From positions 64,861 to 128,860 of the forward strand of contig CACEMT010000002.1 of the NCBI GenBank assembly GCA_902560685.1: a stretch of 64,000 nt of DNA, written 5' to 3'. The notes under the pieces are model-generated. The model was given only the letters and a program-made list of their open reading frames with translations, was not told the DNA's origin and made no database searches. This DNA is from an uncultured Pelagibacteraceae bacterium. GTDB taxonomy: Bacteria; Pseudomonadota; Alphaproteobacteria; Pelagibacterales; Pelagibacteraceae. Below are positions 29,660 through 38,920 of the stretch, in pieces (position 1 is the first letter of the stretch; each line of letters starts with the position of its first letter). The position numbers were made by a program, and so were the translations under genes.

Positions 29660-31185
29660 CATTATTATTAAAAAATAAAATATTTATTTACTTAATACCT
29701 TTAATTTTAGGTTTTGTTACTTCTTTTAGTCTTCCACCATATAGTTATTTTTTTATAAATTTTTTAACTTTTCCACTATTACTAATTTTTCTAATTTTAA
29801 ACTACAAAAAAGGAAAATGGTCATCATTTAAAATTGGTTGGATGTTTGGTTTTGGATATTTTATTTCCAATTTGTATTGGATAACAAACTCACTTAAATT
29901 TGAGGAAAATTTTAAACCTTTAATACCAATAGCATTAATTTTCATTCCTTTATTTTTAGGAATTTTTTATGGTCTAGTTACATTCGCTTGTTCTTTTTTT
30001 TCTTTAAAAAAAAAATTTTCTTCTATAATAATTTTTTCAATTTTTTTTTCTTTAATTGAATTTATTAGAAGTTTTGTTTTAGGAGGATTTCCTTGGAACC
30101 TTATTGTTTTTTCTTGGTCAGATTATTTGCCTTTTTTACAGGTTCTTTCATATATTGGGACTTATTCATTTAATTTGTTAAGTGTAACTATTTTTTTAAT
30201 ACCTACTATAATTTTATTCAATTACAGAAAAGGTATAAAAGCAATTTTTTTAATTTGCACTACATTTATTTTATTAATAAATTTTTTATATGGATCATTC
30301 ATTATTAAAAGTGATGATAAATTTATTCAAAATGATCTAAATTTTGCAGTAAAAATTGTTTCACCAAAAATTAGCATCAACAGATATTTTGAGGATGAAA
30401 GTCCTAAAAAAATAATTTCAGAACTAGTCGAATTAAGTCAGCCTAATAATTTAAAAAAAACAATTTTTATTTTCCCAGAAGGGGTACTTTCCAATGTATA
30501 TTTGGAAGATTTAAAAAATTATAGTTATATATTTTCAGAAAATTATTCCGAAAAACATAAAATTATTATGGGTATAAATAGTATTGAAGATGAAAAAGTA
30601 TTTAACTCCATGGTAGTTTTAGATAAAGATTTAAATATATTAACAAAATATAATAAAAATAAACTAGTTCCTTTTGGTGAGTTTTTGCCTTTCGAAAAAT
30701 TTTTTTTTAAATTCGGTTTAAAGAAAATTACTCAAGGCTATAGATCTTTTTCTAGTGATAATGAGAGAAAAATAATAAATATAAATAATTTAAATTTTGT
30801 TCCGTTAATTTGCTATGAAATAATATACTCAGGTAAAATTAATAAAACTGAAGAAAATTTCGATTTAATATTAAACATATCAGAAGATGGTTGGTTTGGT
30901 AATTCTGTTGGACCATACCAGCATTTCTCACACTCAATATTTAGATCTATAGAAGAAGGAAAGAATTTAGTTCGTTCAGCTAATAATGGTATTTCAGCAT
31001 TTATTAATCCTAAAGGACAAATAATAAATAAGATTAAATCAACTGAGAGGGGAGTTATTGAGGTAAAAAGTTTTGATCAAACAAAAAAAACTCCATTTAG
31101 TTCTTTTGGTAACAAGATCTTCTTTTATTTTTTATTATTTTATATTAGTTTGTTTTTTTTTTTAAAAAAAAAGGAGAATAGATGA
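29656..31185 (+). CDS. lnt: Apolipoprotein N-acyltransferase (TTG start overlapping ybeY TGA)
   Basis: Polytopic N-terminus; [27 protein letters not shown], nitrilase fold. Confidence 0.95.
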
Positions 31186-32345
31186 AGAAAAATTTTTTAT
31201 TTACTAGTGAGTCAGTTTCAGAAGGTCATCCAGATAAGGTTTGTGATAGAATATCAGATATGGTTGTAGATAGTTATCTAGGAGCAGAACCTCAGTCAAG
31301 AGTAGCTTGCGAAACATTAACAACAACTAACAAAGTTGTTCTAGCCGGAGAGGTAAGAGGACCAGAAATTAAAAAAGATGATTTAATTCAGAAAGTTAGA
31401 GAATGTATCAAGGATATTGGTTATGACCAAGATGGCTTTAGTTGGAAAGATACTACTAAGATTGAAACTCATTTACACTCTCAGTCAGCAGATATAGCCA
31501 TGGGAGTAGACTCATCTGGAAATAAAGACGAAGGTGCTGGAGATCAGGGAATTATGTTTGGGTATGCATGCAATGAAACTGATGTCCTAATGCCAGCTCC
31601 AATTCATTACTCACATAGAATTTTAAGATTAATGGCTGAGGATAGAAAATCTGGAAAGCTAAAAGGTATAGAGCCAGATTCAAAAAGTCAAATTACAATT
31701 GAATACAAAGATGGTGTACCTAATGCAGTAAAATCAGTAGTGATATCTACACAACATTCCAAAGATGTTGATTTAGCAAAAGTTAAAGAACTTTGTACGC
31801 CATATATTGAAAGATCTATTCCAAAAAATTTATTAGGAAGTCTTGATGAAAAGGAGATTTATATAAATCCTACAGGAAACTTTGTTATAGGTGGCCCCGA
31901 TGGAGATAGTGGATTGACTGGTAGAAAGATAATTGTAGATACTTATGGTGGAGCAGCACCACATGGTGGAGGTGCTTTTTCAGGAAAAGACCCAACAAAG
32001 GTTGATAGATCAGCTGCATACGCTTCAAGATATTTAGCAAAAAATGTAGTTGCTTCAAAGATTGCAGACAAATGTTTAATCCAGTTAGCTTATGCTATTG
32101 GAGTTTCAAAACCTTTATCAATTTATGTTGATCTTTTTGATAATGATGAGGAAAAAAATAGACATGTAGAACAATTAATTAATGAAAATTTTGATTTAAG
32201 TCCTAGAGGAATTAGAGAAATGCTTGGTTTAAATAAGGCGATATACGAAAAAACTGCAGCATATGGACATTTTGGAAGAGAACCAGAGTCAAATGGTGCA
32301 TTTTCATGGGAAAAAACTGATAAAGCAAATGTTTTTAGCAAGTAA
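31182..32345 (+). CDS. metK: S-adenosylmethionine synthase
   Basis: [46 protein letters not shown]. Confidence 0.99.
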
Positions 32346-32351
32346 TTAAAG

Positions 32352-32379
32352 TTGAAAATATAAAAAAAATACCTATATT
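32352..32379 (+). promoter_or_regulatory. Candidate sigma70 promoter of the nusA operon
   Basis: TTGAAA (32352-32357), 16-bp spacer, TATATT (32374-32379). Confidence 0.45.
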
Positions 32380-32402
32380 CACATTACATTGTTGAAATTT
32401 CA

Positions 32403-32428
32403 AAATGGGCCTCGGCCCATTTTTTTTT
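32403..32428 (+). terminator. Intrinsic terminator between metK and nusA
   Basis: AAATGGGC-CTCG-GCCCATTTTTTTT; the T tract runs straight into the nusA SD GGAG (32429-32432). Confidence 0.9.
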
Positions 32429-32441
32429 GGAGATAACAAAG

Positions 32442-33995
32442 ATGTTAAATAGAAGATCAGATAAACTAGAATTATTAAGGATAGCAGAGGCCGTAGCTAT
32501 TGAAAAATCTATTGATAAGGAGCTAATAATAAGTTCTATGGAGAGTGGAATTGCTAAAGCGGCAAAATCAAAATTTGGATCAGAAAACGAAATTAAAGTA
32601 CTAATAAATAGAGAAAATGGAGATATTGGTATTTTTAGAAAATTAATAATTGCTGAAAAACCTGAAAACTCAAACTTAGAAATTAGTCTTGATCAAGCAA
32701 TCGAATTAAATAAAGACAATGATGGAAAAAATATAGGAGATGAAGTTTTACAACCATTACCATCTTTTGATTTTGGAAGGATAGCAGCACAAACAGCAAA
32801 GCAGGTTATAAGTTCAAATGTTAGGGAAGCTGAAAGAGAAAGGCAATTTAATGATTTTATTGATAAGAAAGATACTATTCTAAGTGGAATTGTAAAAAGA
32901 CTTGAATTTGGAAATGTAATTGCTGATTTAGGTAGAACAGAAGCAATAATCCAAAAAAATGAATTAATACCAAGAGAAAATATAAAAGCTGGTGATAGAA
33001 TTAAAGCATACTGCTTAGATGTTAGAAGAGAACCACGTGGACAACAGATATTTTTATCTAGAGCTCATCCTAAGTTTATGGAAAAATTATTTGTTCAGGA
33101 AGTTCCAGAAATTTATGATGGATTAATCGAGATTAAATCTTCTGCTAGAGACCCAGGTAGTAGAGCAAAAATATGTGTAAAAGCAAAAGACACCTCCCTT
33201 GATCCAGTTGGAGCGTGTGTTGGTATGAGAGGAAGCAGAGTTCAAGCAGTAGTTAATGAATTACAGGGAGAAAAAATAGATATTGTTAATTGGTCAGAAG
33301 ATCCAGCAATTTTAGTGTCAAGTGCATTGTCACCAGCAGAAGTTCAACGAGTAAATGTAGATACTGAAAGAAGAAAATTAGACGTAATTTTGACAGATGA
33401 AAATTTAAGTAAAGCAATTGGTAGAAGAGGACAAAATGTAAGATTAGCAACCAAACTATTAAATTATGAAATAAACATAATGACGGACCAAGAAGATTCA
33501 GAAAAACGTCAAATTGAATTTAAAGAAAAAACAGATAATTTTGTCAAAAATTTGGAATTAGACGAAACTCTAGGACAGCTTTTAGTTGCTGAAGGTTTCT
33601 CATCAATTGATGATATTAAGGAAAGTTCAGTTGATTCCCTTATAAAAATTGAGGGTATCGAAGAAGAAACCGCTAAAGAACTTATTGAAAGAGCAAAAGA
33701 ATTTTATCAAAAAGATCAAATTGCTATTAATAACAAAATAAAAGAACTTGGTTTGGAGAGTGAATTAATAAATCATAAAGGTTTAACTCCAGGAATGCTA
33801 CTTACTTTAGGAGAGCAAAATATTTTAAAACTCTCAGATTTTGCCGATTTATCTTCTGATGAATTAACAGGAGCATATGATGTTGTCAAAGGAGAAAGAG
33901 TTAAAATTAAAGGTTATCTTGAAGAATTTGCATTATCAAAAGAAGAATCAGACGAATTAATAATGTCAGCAAGAGAAAAAGTATATAAAGATTGA
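32442..33995 (+). CDS. nusA: Transcription termination/antitermination protein NusA
   Basis: S1/KH domains, GACVGMRGSRVQAVVNELQGEKIDIV, C-terminal acidic repeats; start set to ATG 32442 with GGAG SD. Confidence 0.98.
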   Translation: MLNRRSDKLELLRIAEAVAIEKSIDKELIISSMESGIAKAAKSKFGSENEIKVLINRENGDIGIFRKLIIAEKPENSNLEISLDQAIELNKDNDGKNIGDEVLQPLPSFDFGRIAAQTAKQVISSNVREAERERQFNDFIDKKDTILSGIVKRLEFGNVIADLGRTEAIIQKNELIPRENIKAGDRIKAYCLDVRREPRGQQIFLSRAHPKFMEKLFVQEVPEIYDGLIEIKSSARDPGSRAKICVKAKDTSLDPVGACVGMRGSRVQAVVNELQGEKIDIVNWSEDPAILVSSALSPAEVQRVNVDTERRKLDVILTDENLSKAIGRRGQNVRLATKLLNYEINIMTDQEDSEKRQIEFKEKTDNFVKNLELDETLGQLLVAEGFSSIDDIKESSVDSLIKIEGIEEETAKELIERAKEFYQKDQIAINNKIKELGLESELINHKGLTPGMLLTLGEQNILKLSDFADLSSDELTGAYDVVKGERVKIKGYLEEFALSKEESDELIMSAREKVYKD

Positions 33996-34005
33996 GAAAT
34001 GACTT

Positions 34006-36216
34006 ATGGAAAAGAAAAAATTAAAACTAAAAATTTCTGAAGGCTCAAAAAAAACAATTAATAATATTGAATTAGCAAAATCTAAAGCGAATAATTCTGT
34101 AGTAATTGAAAAAAAAAATATTAGGGGTGGAACTAGAAGTTCATTTTCAAATATAAATAATCAAAAAAATCAAAATAAAACCAAGTCTCATTTTACTTCA
34201 AAAACATCTAATTTTTCAAAACCTACTGGAATTAACGATTATGAGAAAAGAAAATTGGCAGAGCAAAGAGCTACAAAAAGACTTAGAGGAGAAAATATTC
34301 CAAAAAGTAAAACTGGATCGAATATAAAAAAAAGAGAATTAAAATTAACTTTATCAAGAGCACTTAGTGATGAGGATATCGAATTTAAAGGCAGAAGCTT
34401 AGCATCTTTAAAAAGAGCAAAACAAAAAGAAAATAAGGAAAATCAAAAAAATCAAAATCTAGAAGAACTTAAACCTGTAAAAAGAGATATAAATATACCT
34501 GAGGTAATTACTATAAGAGAGCTTGCGAATAGAATGGCGGAGCAGTCGAGCAATATAATTAAACATCTTTTATCTATGGGTGTGACGGCAACAATCAACC
34601 ATAGTATTAATTCTGATATAGCAGAATATTTAGTTCAAGAATTTGGTCATAATCCAATCAAAGAAAAAAAAGCAGAAGAAATCATAAAAAAAATAAAAGA
34701 AGTTAAATCTCAAAATTTAAAGAATAGACCACCAATTATAACTGTAATGGGACATGTTGATCACGGAAAAACTTCAGTTCTAGATGTTTTAAGAAAAGCA
34801 AATGTTGTTTCGGGCGAATTTGGAGGAATTACTCAACATCTTGGTTCATATCAAATAAATTATAATTCAAATAAAATAACATTTATTGATACGCCTGGAC
34901 ATGCAGCTTTTACAGAGATGAGAGCAAGAGGTTCGAAATTAACAGATATAGTTATATTGGTAGTTGCAGCAGACGATGGAGTAAAACCTCAAACCATAGA
35001 GTCAATTAAACATGCAAAAGCCGCAAAAGTTCCAATCGTAGTAGCAATTAACAAGTGTGATCTTCCAGAAGCAGATCCACAAAAGGTAAGAAATCAATTA
35101 TTAGAACATGAATTAATTGCTGAAGAATTATCAGGTGACACTTTGATTGTAGAAATATCTGCAAAGACTAAAAAAAATATTGATAAGTTAATTGAGTCAG
35201 TTTTATTGCAAGCAGAACTGTTAGAGTTAAAATCTGATTATGACCTTAAAGCAAATGGGGTTGTATTAGAATCAAAAATAGATATTGGTAGAGGACCGGT
35301 TGTAAATATTATTGTAACATCCGGTACATTAAAAAAAGGAGATTATTTTGTAAGTGGTCTTAAGTGGGGTAAAGTTAGAGCTTTAATTAACGACAAAGGG
35401 GAAAATATAGGAGAAGCTTTACCATCTACTCCAGTTGAAGTACTAGGTATAAATGGAGCTGCAAAAGCCGGAGACGATTTTGTTGTACTAGGGACAGAAA
35501 AAGAAGCCAAATCATTATCTTCTGCTAGAATCCAAGAAAATCAACAAGGAAAAAATCCACTAACTTTTGTTACACAAGATTCTGCTTTTAAAGATAAAAC
35601 AACTGAAGAGCTTAATATTATTATTAAGTCAGATGTACATGGATCTTCTGAGGCTATAAAAAATGCTATTACACAGATCGAACACGAGGAAGTTAAACCA
35701 AAAATAATTTTATCTGATATAGGAATGATAACTGAGACAGATGTATCATTAACAAAAGCATCGAATGCATTACTTGTTGCATTTAATGTTAAGCCTAGCA
35801 AGGAAGCAAAACAGGCTGCAGAAAAAGAAAAAATTAAAATTAATTCATTTAATATAATTTATGAACTTTTAGAATTTATCAAGAATAAGATGTCAGGAAT
35901 GTTGGCACCTGATATTGAAGAAAAAATTATAGGTTCTGCGGAAATTCTTGAGATATTTAAAGTATCCAAGGTAGGTAAAGTTGCTGGATCCAAAGTAACC
36001 GAAGGAGAAATAGTACAAGATTCTAGCGCAAGGATTATACGTGATGGTACTATTATATTTAATGGAAAGATTGGATCAATTTTTAGAGAAAAAAATCAAG
36101 CAAAACAGGTATCTGCAGGTCTAGAGTGTGGAATTACAATAAAAAATTTTAATGATTTCCAAAAAAAAGATATTATTGAAGTTTTTAATTCCACTGTAAC
36201 AGAGAGGTCAATATAA
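34006..36216 (+). CDS. infB: Translation initiation factor IF-2
   Basis: PPIITVMGHVDHGKTSVLDVLR, FIDTPGHAAFTEMRARG, INKCDLP. Confidence 0.99.
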   Translation: MEKKKLKLKISEGSKKTINNIELAKSKANNSVVIEKKNIRGGTRSSFSNINNQKNQNKTKSHFTSKTSNFSKPTGINDYEKRKLAEQRATKRLRGENIPKSKTGSNIKKRELKLTLSRALSDEDIEFKGRSLASLKRAKQKENKENQKNQNLEELKPVKRDINIPEVITIRELANRMAEQSSNIIKHLLSMGVTATINHSINSDIAEYLVQEFGHNPIKEKKAEEIIKKIKEVKSQNLKNRPPIITVMGHVDHGKTSVLDVLRKANVVSGEFGGITQHLGSYQINYNSNKITFIDTPGHAAFTEMRARGSKLTDIVILVVAADDGVKPQTIESIKHAKAAKVPIVVAINKCDLPEADPQKVRNQLLEHELIAEELSGDTLIVEISAKTKKNIDKLIESVLLQAELLELKSDYDLKANGVVLESKIDIGRGPVVNIIVTSGTLKKGDYFVSGLKWGKVRALINDKGENIGEALPSTPVEVLGINGAAKAGDDFVVLGTEKEAKSLSSARIQENQQGKNPLTFVTQDSAFKDKTTEELNIIIKSDVHGSSEAIKNAITQIEHEEVKPKIILSDIGMITETDVSLTKASNALLVAFNVKPSKEAKQAAEKEKIKINSFNIIYELLEFIKNKMSGMLAPDIEEKIIGSAEILEIFKVSKVGKVAGSKVTEGEIVQDSSARIIRDGTIIFNGKIGSIFREKNQAKQVSAGLECGITIKNFNDFQKKDIIEVFNSTVTERSI

Positions 36217-36218
36217 CA

Positions 36219-36584
36219 ATGAGTAAATTAAGTAAACCAATTTCACAAAGACAATTGAGAGTTGGAGAAATGATCAAACAAGCATTAGGAATGATTTTTT
36301 TAAGAGACGAAGCTAAGCTTGGTACTTTTGAAACAAAAGAGATTACAGTTACTGAAGTAAGAATGAGTCAAGATCTTAAAATCGCAAAAGCATTTGTTTT
36401 GCCACTTGGAGGCAAAAATTCTCAAGAAATAGTTGACACACTTAAAGAATTTTCATTTGTAATTAGAAAAGTTTTATCAAAGAAGATAACAATGAAGTAT
36501 TTACCAAAGCTTCTATTCGTTAAGGATGAATCTTTTGATTATGCTGAAAAAATTGAAAACTTAATAAAACAAACAAATAAATAG
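36219..36584 (+). CDS. rbfA: Ribosome-binding factor A
   Basis: SQRQLRVGEMIKQALG...VTEVRMSQDLKIAKAFV. Confidence 0.95.
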   Translation: MSKLSKPISQRQLRVGEMIKQALGMIFLRDEAKLGTFETKEITVTEVRMSQDLKIAKAFVLPLGGKNSQEIVDTLKEFSFVIRKVLSKKITMKYLPKLLFVKDESFDYAEKIENLIKQTNK

Positions 36585-36592
36585 GAAACGAG

Positions 36593-36841
36593 ATGACTAA
36601 AAAGAGTAAAGAACTAGCTATGCATGACAAGGATACTGGATCTTCAGAAATTCAAGTAGCACAGCTAACTGACAAAATTGAAAATTTATCAAATCATATA
36701 AAAAAATTTAAAAAAGATAAGCATTCTTCAGTTGGTTTACTAAAAGCAGTAAATAGAAGAAAAAAATTATTAGATTATTTAAAAAAAAATAAACTAGAAT
36801 CTTATCAAAATGTAATATCGAAACTAAATATAAGAAAGTAG
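36593..36841 (+). CDS. rpsO: Ribosomal protein S15 (uS15)
   Basis: DTGSSEIQVAQLTDKIENLSNHIKKFKKDKHSSVGLLKAVNRRKKLLDYL. Confidence 0.98.
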   Translation: MTKKSKELAMHDKDTGSSEIQVAQLTDKIENLSNHIKKFKKDKHSSVGLLKAVNRRKKLLDYLKKNKLESYQNVISKLNIRK

Positions 36842-36847
36842 AAATAA

Positions 36848-38920
36848 ATGTTTAAAGTATTTAAAAAAGAAATTGAATTAAATGGAAAAAAAATAAGTTT
36901 AGAGACAGGTAAAATTGCTAGACAAGCAGATGGAGCAATAATTGCTAAATATGGAGAAACAGTTGTTTTGGCAACAGTTGTTGGTGCAAAAAAAATAAAT
37001 CCAGATGTAGATTACTTTCCATTATCAGTTAATTATCAAGAAAAGTATTATGCAGCTGGAAAAATTCCTGGCGGTTATTTTAAAAGAGAAGCAAGACCAA
37101 CCGAGAGTGAAACACTAATTTCAAGGCTAATTGATAGACCTATAAGACCATTATTTCCGGACGAATTTAAAAATGAAGTACAATTACTTCCAACAGTAAT
37201 ATCATACGATAAAGAAAATGAAGCAGATATATTATCTATTATTGCTTCATCAGCAGCTTTAGCTATATCAGGCATGCCATTCATGGGACCAGTCGGAGCT
37301 TCTAGAGTTGGTTTTATTGATGGTAAATATATTCTTAATCCATCAAAAAAAGAGTTAGAAAATTCAAAGTTGGATCTTGTAGTTGCAGGTACTAAAGATG
37401 CAGTTTTAATGGTTGAGTCTGAAACCAGTGGTTTAACTGAAGAAGAAATGCTTAATGCAGTTAAATTTGGCCATGAAAGTTTTATTCCAGTAATCAAAAT
37501 GATAGAGGAACTTGCCGCTGAATGTAAGAAGCCAGATTGGATTGTAGAGAAAAAAGATCTTTCAGAAGTTAAGAAAAAAATTGAAGAGGAATTTACGGAT
37601 GAATTAAAAAAGGCTTTTTCAATTAAGGATAAGCAAGAAAGATCAAATTTAATATCTGAAATAACCAACAAAGCAAAAAAATTATTTGAAGAAAATGAAA
37701 ATTTTACAGATCTAGATGTTAATTCTGAACTTAAAAACTTAGAAAAAAGAATAGTTAGAACTGATATCTTAAAAAATAAGAATAGAATTGACGGAAGAGG
37801 ACTTTCAGATGTAAGACCAATTATGTGTGAAGTTGGAATTTTGCCAAGAACACATGGCTCTGCATTGTTTACAAGAGGTGAAACTCAAGCGATAGTTACA
37901 ACTACGCTTGGAACTTCAGATGATGAACAGAGGATTGAAAGTTTGGAAGGTCTTCAAAGGGAAAGATTTATGCTTCATTATAATTTTCCACCATTCTCAG
38001 TCGGAGAAACTGGAAGAATTGGTACAGGAAGAAGAGAAATTGGACATGGAAAACTTGCATGGAGAGCTATAAATTCTTCACTACCATCAAAAGAAAGTTT
38101 TCCTTATACATTTAGAATAGTATCTGAAATCACAGAGTCTAATGGCTCATCATCAATGGCAACAGTCTGTGGAACTTCATTAGCATTAATGGACGCTGGT
38201 GTTCCAATCAAAGAACCAGTTGCAGGTATTGCTATGGGCTTAATTAAAGAAGGTGAAGATTTCAGAGTATTGTCAGATATTCTAGGAGATGAAGATCACT
38301 TAGGTGATATGGATTTTAAAGTTGCAGGAACTAAAGATGGAATTACGTCACTTCAAATGGATATTAAAATTACAGGAATTACCTTTGAAATAATGGAGCA
38401 AGCTTTAAAACAGGCTAAAGATGGAAGGATTCATATCTTGGGCGAAATGAATAAAGCTTTAGACAAATCAAGAGAAGGTGTTGGTAAACATACTCCGAAG
38501 ATGGAAAAAATTACTGTCGATAAAAAAGATATTGCAACAGTTATTGGAAAAGGAGGCGCAACAATAAGAGAAATAGTTGAAAAATCAGGCGCTAAAGTAG
38601 ATGTTAATGATGAGGGAGTTGTAACAGTTGCAGCTCCGGATGAAGAATCTCGAAACATTGCTTTGCAATTTATAAAAGACATAACTGCTAAAGCTGAATT
38701 GAATAAAATTTATAACGGAAAAGTTATGAAAATTATGGAATTTGGAGCATTTGTTAACTTTCTTGGAAAACAAGATGGTTTAGTTCATATTTCTGAACTT
38801 GCAGATAAAAGAGTTGCTAAGGTGACTGATGTTGTCAAAGAAGGCGATGCAGTGAAAGTTAAAGTTATTGGTTTTGATAGAGGTAAAGTAAAACTATCTA
38901 TAAAACAAGCTGTTGTGTAA
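36848..38920 (+). CDS. pnp: Polynucleotide phosphorylase
   Basis: Two RNase PH domains, KH ([12 protein letters not shown]) and S1 domains. Confidence 0.99.

Follow-up and report, generated by a model that had tools for sequence, protein, structure and literature searches.

The rimP-leader, termed the most ubiquitous transcription attenuator, consists of a GGGc...gCCC stem followed by a stretch of U and lies 4–130 nt before the first gene of the rimP-nusA-infB operon; its effector was left open, RimP and NusA being the two candidates (Naville and Gautheret 2010, PMC2965389). Autoregulation by NusA is documented in B. subtilis, where NusA-stimulated termination in the leader controls its own gene nusA (reviewed in PMC12288461), while in E. 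coli NusA represses its own operon, according to work cited in PMC2965389. Here we describe the corresponding region of SAR11 (Pelagibacterales), starting from a window of 64,000 nucleotides (the whole stretch of DNA analysed) assigned to an uncultured Pelagibacteraceae bacterium. With a probability of roughly 0.6, we consider that the element between metK and nusA acts as an attenuator of transcription within the 5' leader of nusA-infB-rbfA-rpsO-pnp, i.e., the SAR11 rimP-leader, and that it likely serves negative feedback by NusA. The rimP-leader attenuator itself is already known; what is new here is a leader standing directly on nusA after the loss of rimP. A literature search that left most subscription journals outside its reach found no paper on the SAR11 form of the leader, and the paper on structured RNAs of Pelagibacter (PMC2704228) does not mention nusA.

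The features of the locus are collected in Table 1. An original prediction, made from the letters of the window, had already placed the promoter, the hairpin, the T tract, the GGAG and the ATG, and direct reading gave the same coordinates throughout. The operon (32442–38920) is slimmer than in other alphaproteobacteria, rimP being missing ahead of nusA, and neither ylxR nor truB was seen between nusA, infB, rbfA and rpsO in the ORF list of the window.

Table 1. Features from metK to the nusA operon (positions in the window).
Feature	Position	Strand	Remarks
metK	31182..32345	+	upstream, co-directional; stop codon 32343-32345; ORF and domain reading
-35-like TTGAAA of predicted nusA leader promoter	32352..32357	+	direct read; fixed distance in 102/103 genus sequences
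-10-like TATATT	32374..32379	+	16-nt spacer from TTGAAA; direct read and genus comparison
Short leader before terminator stem	32386..32401	+	predicted unpaired, fold of 42-nt RNA
Palindrome TTGAAATTTCAA	32392..32403	+	direct read; conserved in part only
Terminator hairpin AAAATGGGC-CTCG-GCCCATTTT	32402..32423	+	GGGc...gCCC core as in rimP-leader
Hairpin parts	AAAATGGGC 32402-32410, loop CTCG 32411-32414, GCCCATTTT 32415-32423	+	
T9 (U) tract of terminator	32420..32428	+	first four T also in stem
GGAG, nusA Shine-Dalgarno sequence	32429..32432	+	abuts T tract; direct read
nusA (NusA_N, S1, KH_5, HHH_5)	32442..33995	+	ATG 32442-32444, 517 aa; regulated gene, proposed effector
infB, rbfA, rpsO, pnp (rest of operon)	34006..38920	+	ORF and domain reading

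The SAR11 leader resembles the rimP-leader in being a short terminator in the leader of a nusA-infB operon, near the first start codon, with a GGG/CCC stem and a G-rich 5' arm in 142/142 distinct sequences (GGGC...GCCC in the window), a U stretch of T9 or T10 right behind the stem in all 142, no antiterminator, and a sequence conserved beyond the structure. Some 20 nt separate the hairpin from the start codon, to be compared with the 4–130 nt of the definition, and the operon is nusA-infB, without rimP. Two differences stand out: published leaders precede rimP-nusA-infB, whereas in SAR11 rimP is gone and the leader comes directly before nusA, and the SAR11 promoter and terminator are packed within about 70 nt. 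In the metY-rimP-nusA-infB operon of E. coli, GGGCTTTAGGCCCTTTTTTT, located 17 nt before rimP, nearly matches SAR11 forms such as GGGCTTTGGCCCATTTTTTTTT, but metY, rimP and a second upstream terminator are all features of E. coli that are lacking here. With the autoregulation of NusA in B. subtilis, the SAR11 locus shares the operon and the logic, i.e., a leader terminator of the intrinsic kind ahead of nusA, here between the predicted promoter and the nusA operon; yet in B. subtilis the effect is reported from experiments, rimP (ylxS) comes first and the leader measures 180 nt, whereas the SAR11 leader of about 55 nt is read from sequence. Across 61 genomes, the Rfam family RF01770 (rimP) scored the SAR11 nusA leaders at about 20–24 bits, within the background, no genome exceeding the gathering cut-off of 47, and Rfam scans of the window and region yielded no meaningful match. 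Because RF01770 does not recognise these leaders, the SAR11 leader is a match to the published rimP-leader motif and not to the Rfam family.

RimP was found in 170 of the 192 alphaproteobacteria sampled, whereas a genome-wide search recovered it from none of 61 SAR11 genomes (18 near complete), and the RimP C-terminal domain gave nothing over the cut-off in SAR11 genomes. In 30 of 50 rimP-bearing alphaproteobacteria (about 60%), GGG...CCC...TTT turns up in the 260 nt preceding the RimP domain; the inverse motif does so in 3, the reverse strand gives 13 and shuffles give 2.4%. Since rimP is absent from SAR11 and the leader is kept, the leader has, on this comparative reading, outlived rimP and now precedes nusA, on which it sits directly because rimP was lost. 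Outside SAR11, three rimP-less alphaproteobacterial families have a GC hairpin and a T tract right before nusA (L103, L114, L115), and several other rimP-less families have no hairpin before nusA (L105–L110).

To follow the hairpin across SAR11, the regions around the nusA start were compared in 73 genomes from two families and in 80 named loci obtained by a nusA search (all records of Pelagibacteraceae or Pelagibacter), i.e., 153 partly overlapping loci. GGG...CCC and a T tract occur at most about 20 nt from the nusA start codon in 153/153 of these loci (some overlap), so that the absence of the hairpin upstream of nusA in relatives, which the original prediction had named as one observation that would count against it, was encountered nowhere. 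Over the 142 distinct sequences, none of the three GGG/CCC pairs shows any variation, and the T run counts 9 in 139 of them and 10 in 3. The inner C–G pair is present in 123/142, the inner segment taking 38 forms, and the second outer pair varies as a pair between groups (A–T in 119, G–C in 19), while in some genera (L053, L058, L060, L061, L063) an outer pair is lost and the core retained. Within the genus, identity over the T tract and both arms of the stem reaches 99.2%, compared with 58% over the 50 nt upstream and 61% at nusA third codon positions. As an internal control for run length, the A stretches of the promoter spacer in these genus sequences were measured, and the longest ranges from 3 to 10. 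Each genus genome has one such site, always at nusA, besides a few GCCCCC look-alikes.

The promoter-like element is conserved as well. In 102 of the 103 genus sequences, TTGNWW-16-TATAWW ends 22–25 nt before the stem, an arrangement found in 0.06% of dinucleotide shuffles, which bears out the promoter candidate that had been proposed upstream of the terminator. The other family mostly has TTGATT-17-TATAGA or TATAAG, 25–28 nt before the stem, and genus g6 has TTGATA-17, 22 nt before it; promoter matches are poor in genera g5 and g7. When the best sigma-70 match is taken instead, it beats shuffles in g1 and g8 only, and it is uninformative in the other groups because the DNA is so AT-rich. Counts within the window do not exceed chance either: over 12 kb there are 2 terminator-like sites, for 3.7 expected in shuffles, and the promoter match (10/12) is 1 of 55, for 61 expected. 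It is thus conservation across SAR11 relatives, and not single-genome counts, that raises the promoter and terminator above chance. As judged from the sequence and these comparisons, the leader holds a promoter-like element and a terminator in this order, and selection acts on both.

From the position of the promoter, a start site is predicted near 32385–32387, with an RNA of about 42–44 nt, in agreement with the 20–45 nt first suggested between start and terminator. The stem has 9 bp with 4 GC pairs according to the terminator scan of the window, and the predicted terminated RNA (42 nt) folds into the hairpin alone, the preceding 16 nt remaining unpaired (-13.5 kcal/mol, z -2.8). Since the nusA start codon is preceded by a conserved promoter and then by a conserved terminator, nusA can be expressed from this promoter only if polymerase passes the terminator. 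Under the proposed mechanism, polymerase would start at the promoter (32352–32379), make an unpaired leader of about 16 nt and meet a weak GGGC/GCCC intrinsic terminator, where some transcripts would end at the U tract (about 42–44 nt) and others continue into the ribosome-binding site and nusA. Polymerase arriving from metK (or trmB) would face this terminator too. With rising NusA occupancy of the polymerase, termination would probably increase and nusA mRNA decrease, hence negative feedback. From related systems, we infer promoter use, partial termination and control by NusA. The attenuator first read into the window is upheld insofar as a conserved promoter, followed by a terminator, precedes nusA, but that reading had failed to recognise the known rimP-leader.

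A terminator lying behind one gene and in front of another may also serve the former: it could be the ordinary gene-end terminator of metK (or trmB), abutting nusA owing to tiny gaps, with nusA expressed by leaky, unregulated read-through. The gene upstream of the hairpin is indeed co-directional at every SAR11 locus examined, being metK in g1, g8 and g9 (57–61 nt away) and trmB in the other family and in genera g5–g7 and g11 (39–94 nt away); trmB was assigned from the Methyltransf_4 domain in L005 and from position and sequence at the remaining loci. The hairpin is alike behind both genes and is retained where trmB replaces metK. Because the upstream gene may be either of them, the hairpin travels with nusA, and the suggestion that it doubles as the metK terminator can stand only as part of its role, the notion of a simple metK terminator being weakened by the same hairpin behind trmB. 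For a genome-wide comparison, we turned to a complete relative (G012, L125–L192; 1.34 Mb, about 1,350 ORFs) and, using our own hairpin criteria, counted about 27 intergenic hairpins resembling intrinsic terminators, which suggests that SAR11 uses few of them. For 13 of these 27 sites, a co-directional gene starts no more than 80 nt downstream. Yet most co-directional sites begin 15–37 nt past the stop codon, whereas that of nusA starts 57 nt past it, a conserved promoter occupying the interval, and it ranks 26th of 27 in stability (second weakest), hence weak for a gene-end terminator. Finally, its sequence is frozen beyond what structure demands and agrees with the rimP-leader. Altogether, a mere gene-end terminator appears quite unlikely. 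As for gene order, trmB separates metK from the nusA leader in L005, L001, L002, L017, L051–L063 and L070, and is missing there in g1, g8 and g9.

If the hairpin is an attenuator, as we favour, the question becomes which effector acts on it. RimP is ruled out in SAR11, since rimP has been lost from these genomes, and the same loss strengthens the candidacy of NusA, which plausibly is the best candidate there, by analogy with B. subtilis and given its known feedback on the operon in E. coli. That an abundant order without rimP keeps a near-perfectly identical leader means that RimP is no general requirement, leaving NusA or a general factor. Because no pairing with an antiterminator or with the start codon is kept and the stem sequence is invariant, a protein acting on termination would be the simplest control. 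Several points speak against the favoured reading: the promoter matches of g5 and g7 are poor, several rimP-less families have no hairpin before nusA, and the terminator lies about 44 nt from the predicted start, which gives NusA little time to join. The attenuator might instead respond to another effector, such as cold-shock proteins melting the weak hairpin, nucleotide levels or the state of the polymerase. Cold-shock domain proteins occur in 17 of 18 genomes checked, Csp-mediated antitermination has been proposed for the E. coli nusA-infB operon (a proposal cited in PMC6511841), and the nearly fixed T9 length would suit such a scheme. However, E. coli transcript patterns are reported to be inconsistent with Csp antitermination in that operon (PMC6511841), the G-rich arm, being invariant, hints that its sequence is recognised and not only melted, and a general effector would leave the confinement of the motif to rimP/nusA operons unexplained. 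We regard an effector other than NusA as unlikely. To go one step further, and viewing SAR11 as a deletion experiment made by nature in which the whole order has lost rimP, the frozen GGGC/GCCC leader terminator kept on nusA may be recognised in a sequence-specific manner by NusA or NusA-bound polymerase, a possibility that we take seriously without favouring it. If true, the element would be a minimal NusA sensor of about 44 nt and a rare case of an attenuator in very streamlined free-living genomes. In any case, the leader is very short and suited to direct in vitro tests, and attenuation would have persisted in genomes with very few intrinsic terminators.

A post-transcriptional role was also considered, in which the hairpin would hide the Shine-Dalgarno sequence and the start codon, or protect the 5' end of the mRNA. 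In the RNA fold of the window itself, the leader does pair with the GGAG and the start codon, but no more than 14 of 103 genus sequences have a fully paired start codon, and pairing energies average out against such a function (own leaders -3.57, swapped leaders -3.44, shuffled leaders -4.2 kcal/mol). Occlusion of the Shine-Dalgarno sequence by the hairpin, as originally envisaged, was thus rejected: relatives do not retain the extended fold seen in the window, and own leaders hardly beat swapped ones and do worse than shuffled ones. Moreover, a near-fixed T9 is needed neither for protection nor for occlusion, which makes a post-transcriptional role very improbable. An antiterminator was discarded on similar grounds, its pairing showing up in the fold of the window but own leaders pairing no better than shuffled ones over the 103 genus sequences. 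Last, the palindrome TTGAAATTTCAA is present where it had been pointed out, and 12-mer tallies recover it in about half of the genus sequences; such variability across the genus led us to reject it as an operator and lends no support to a role for it.
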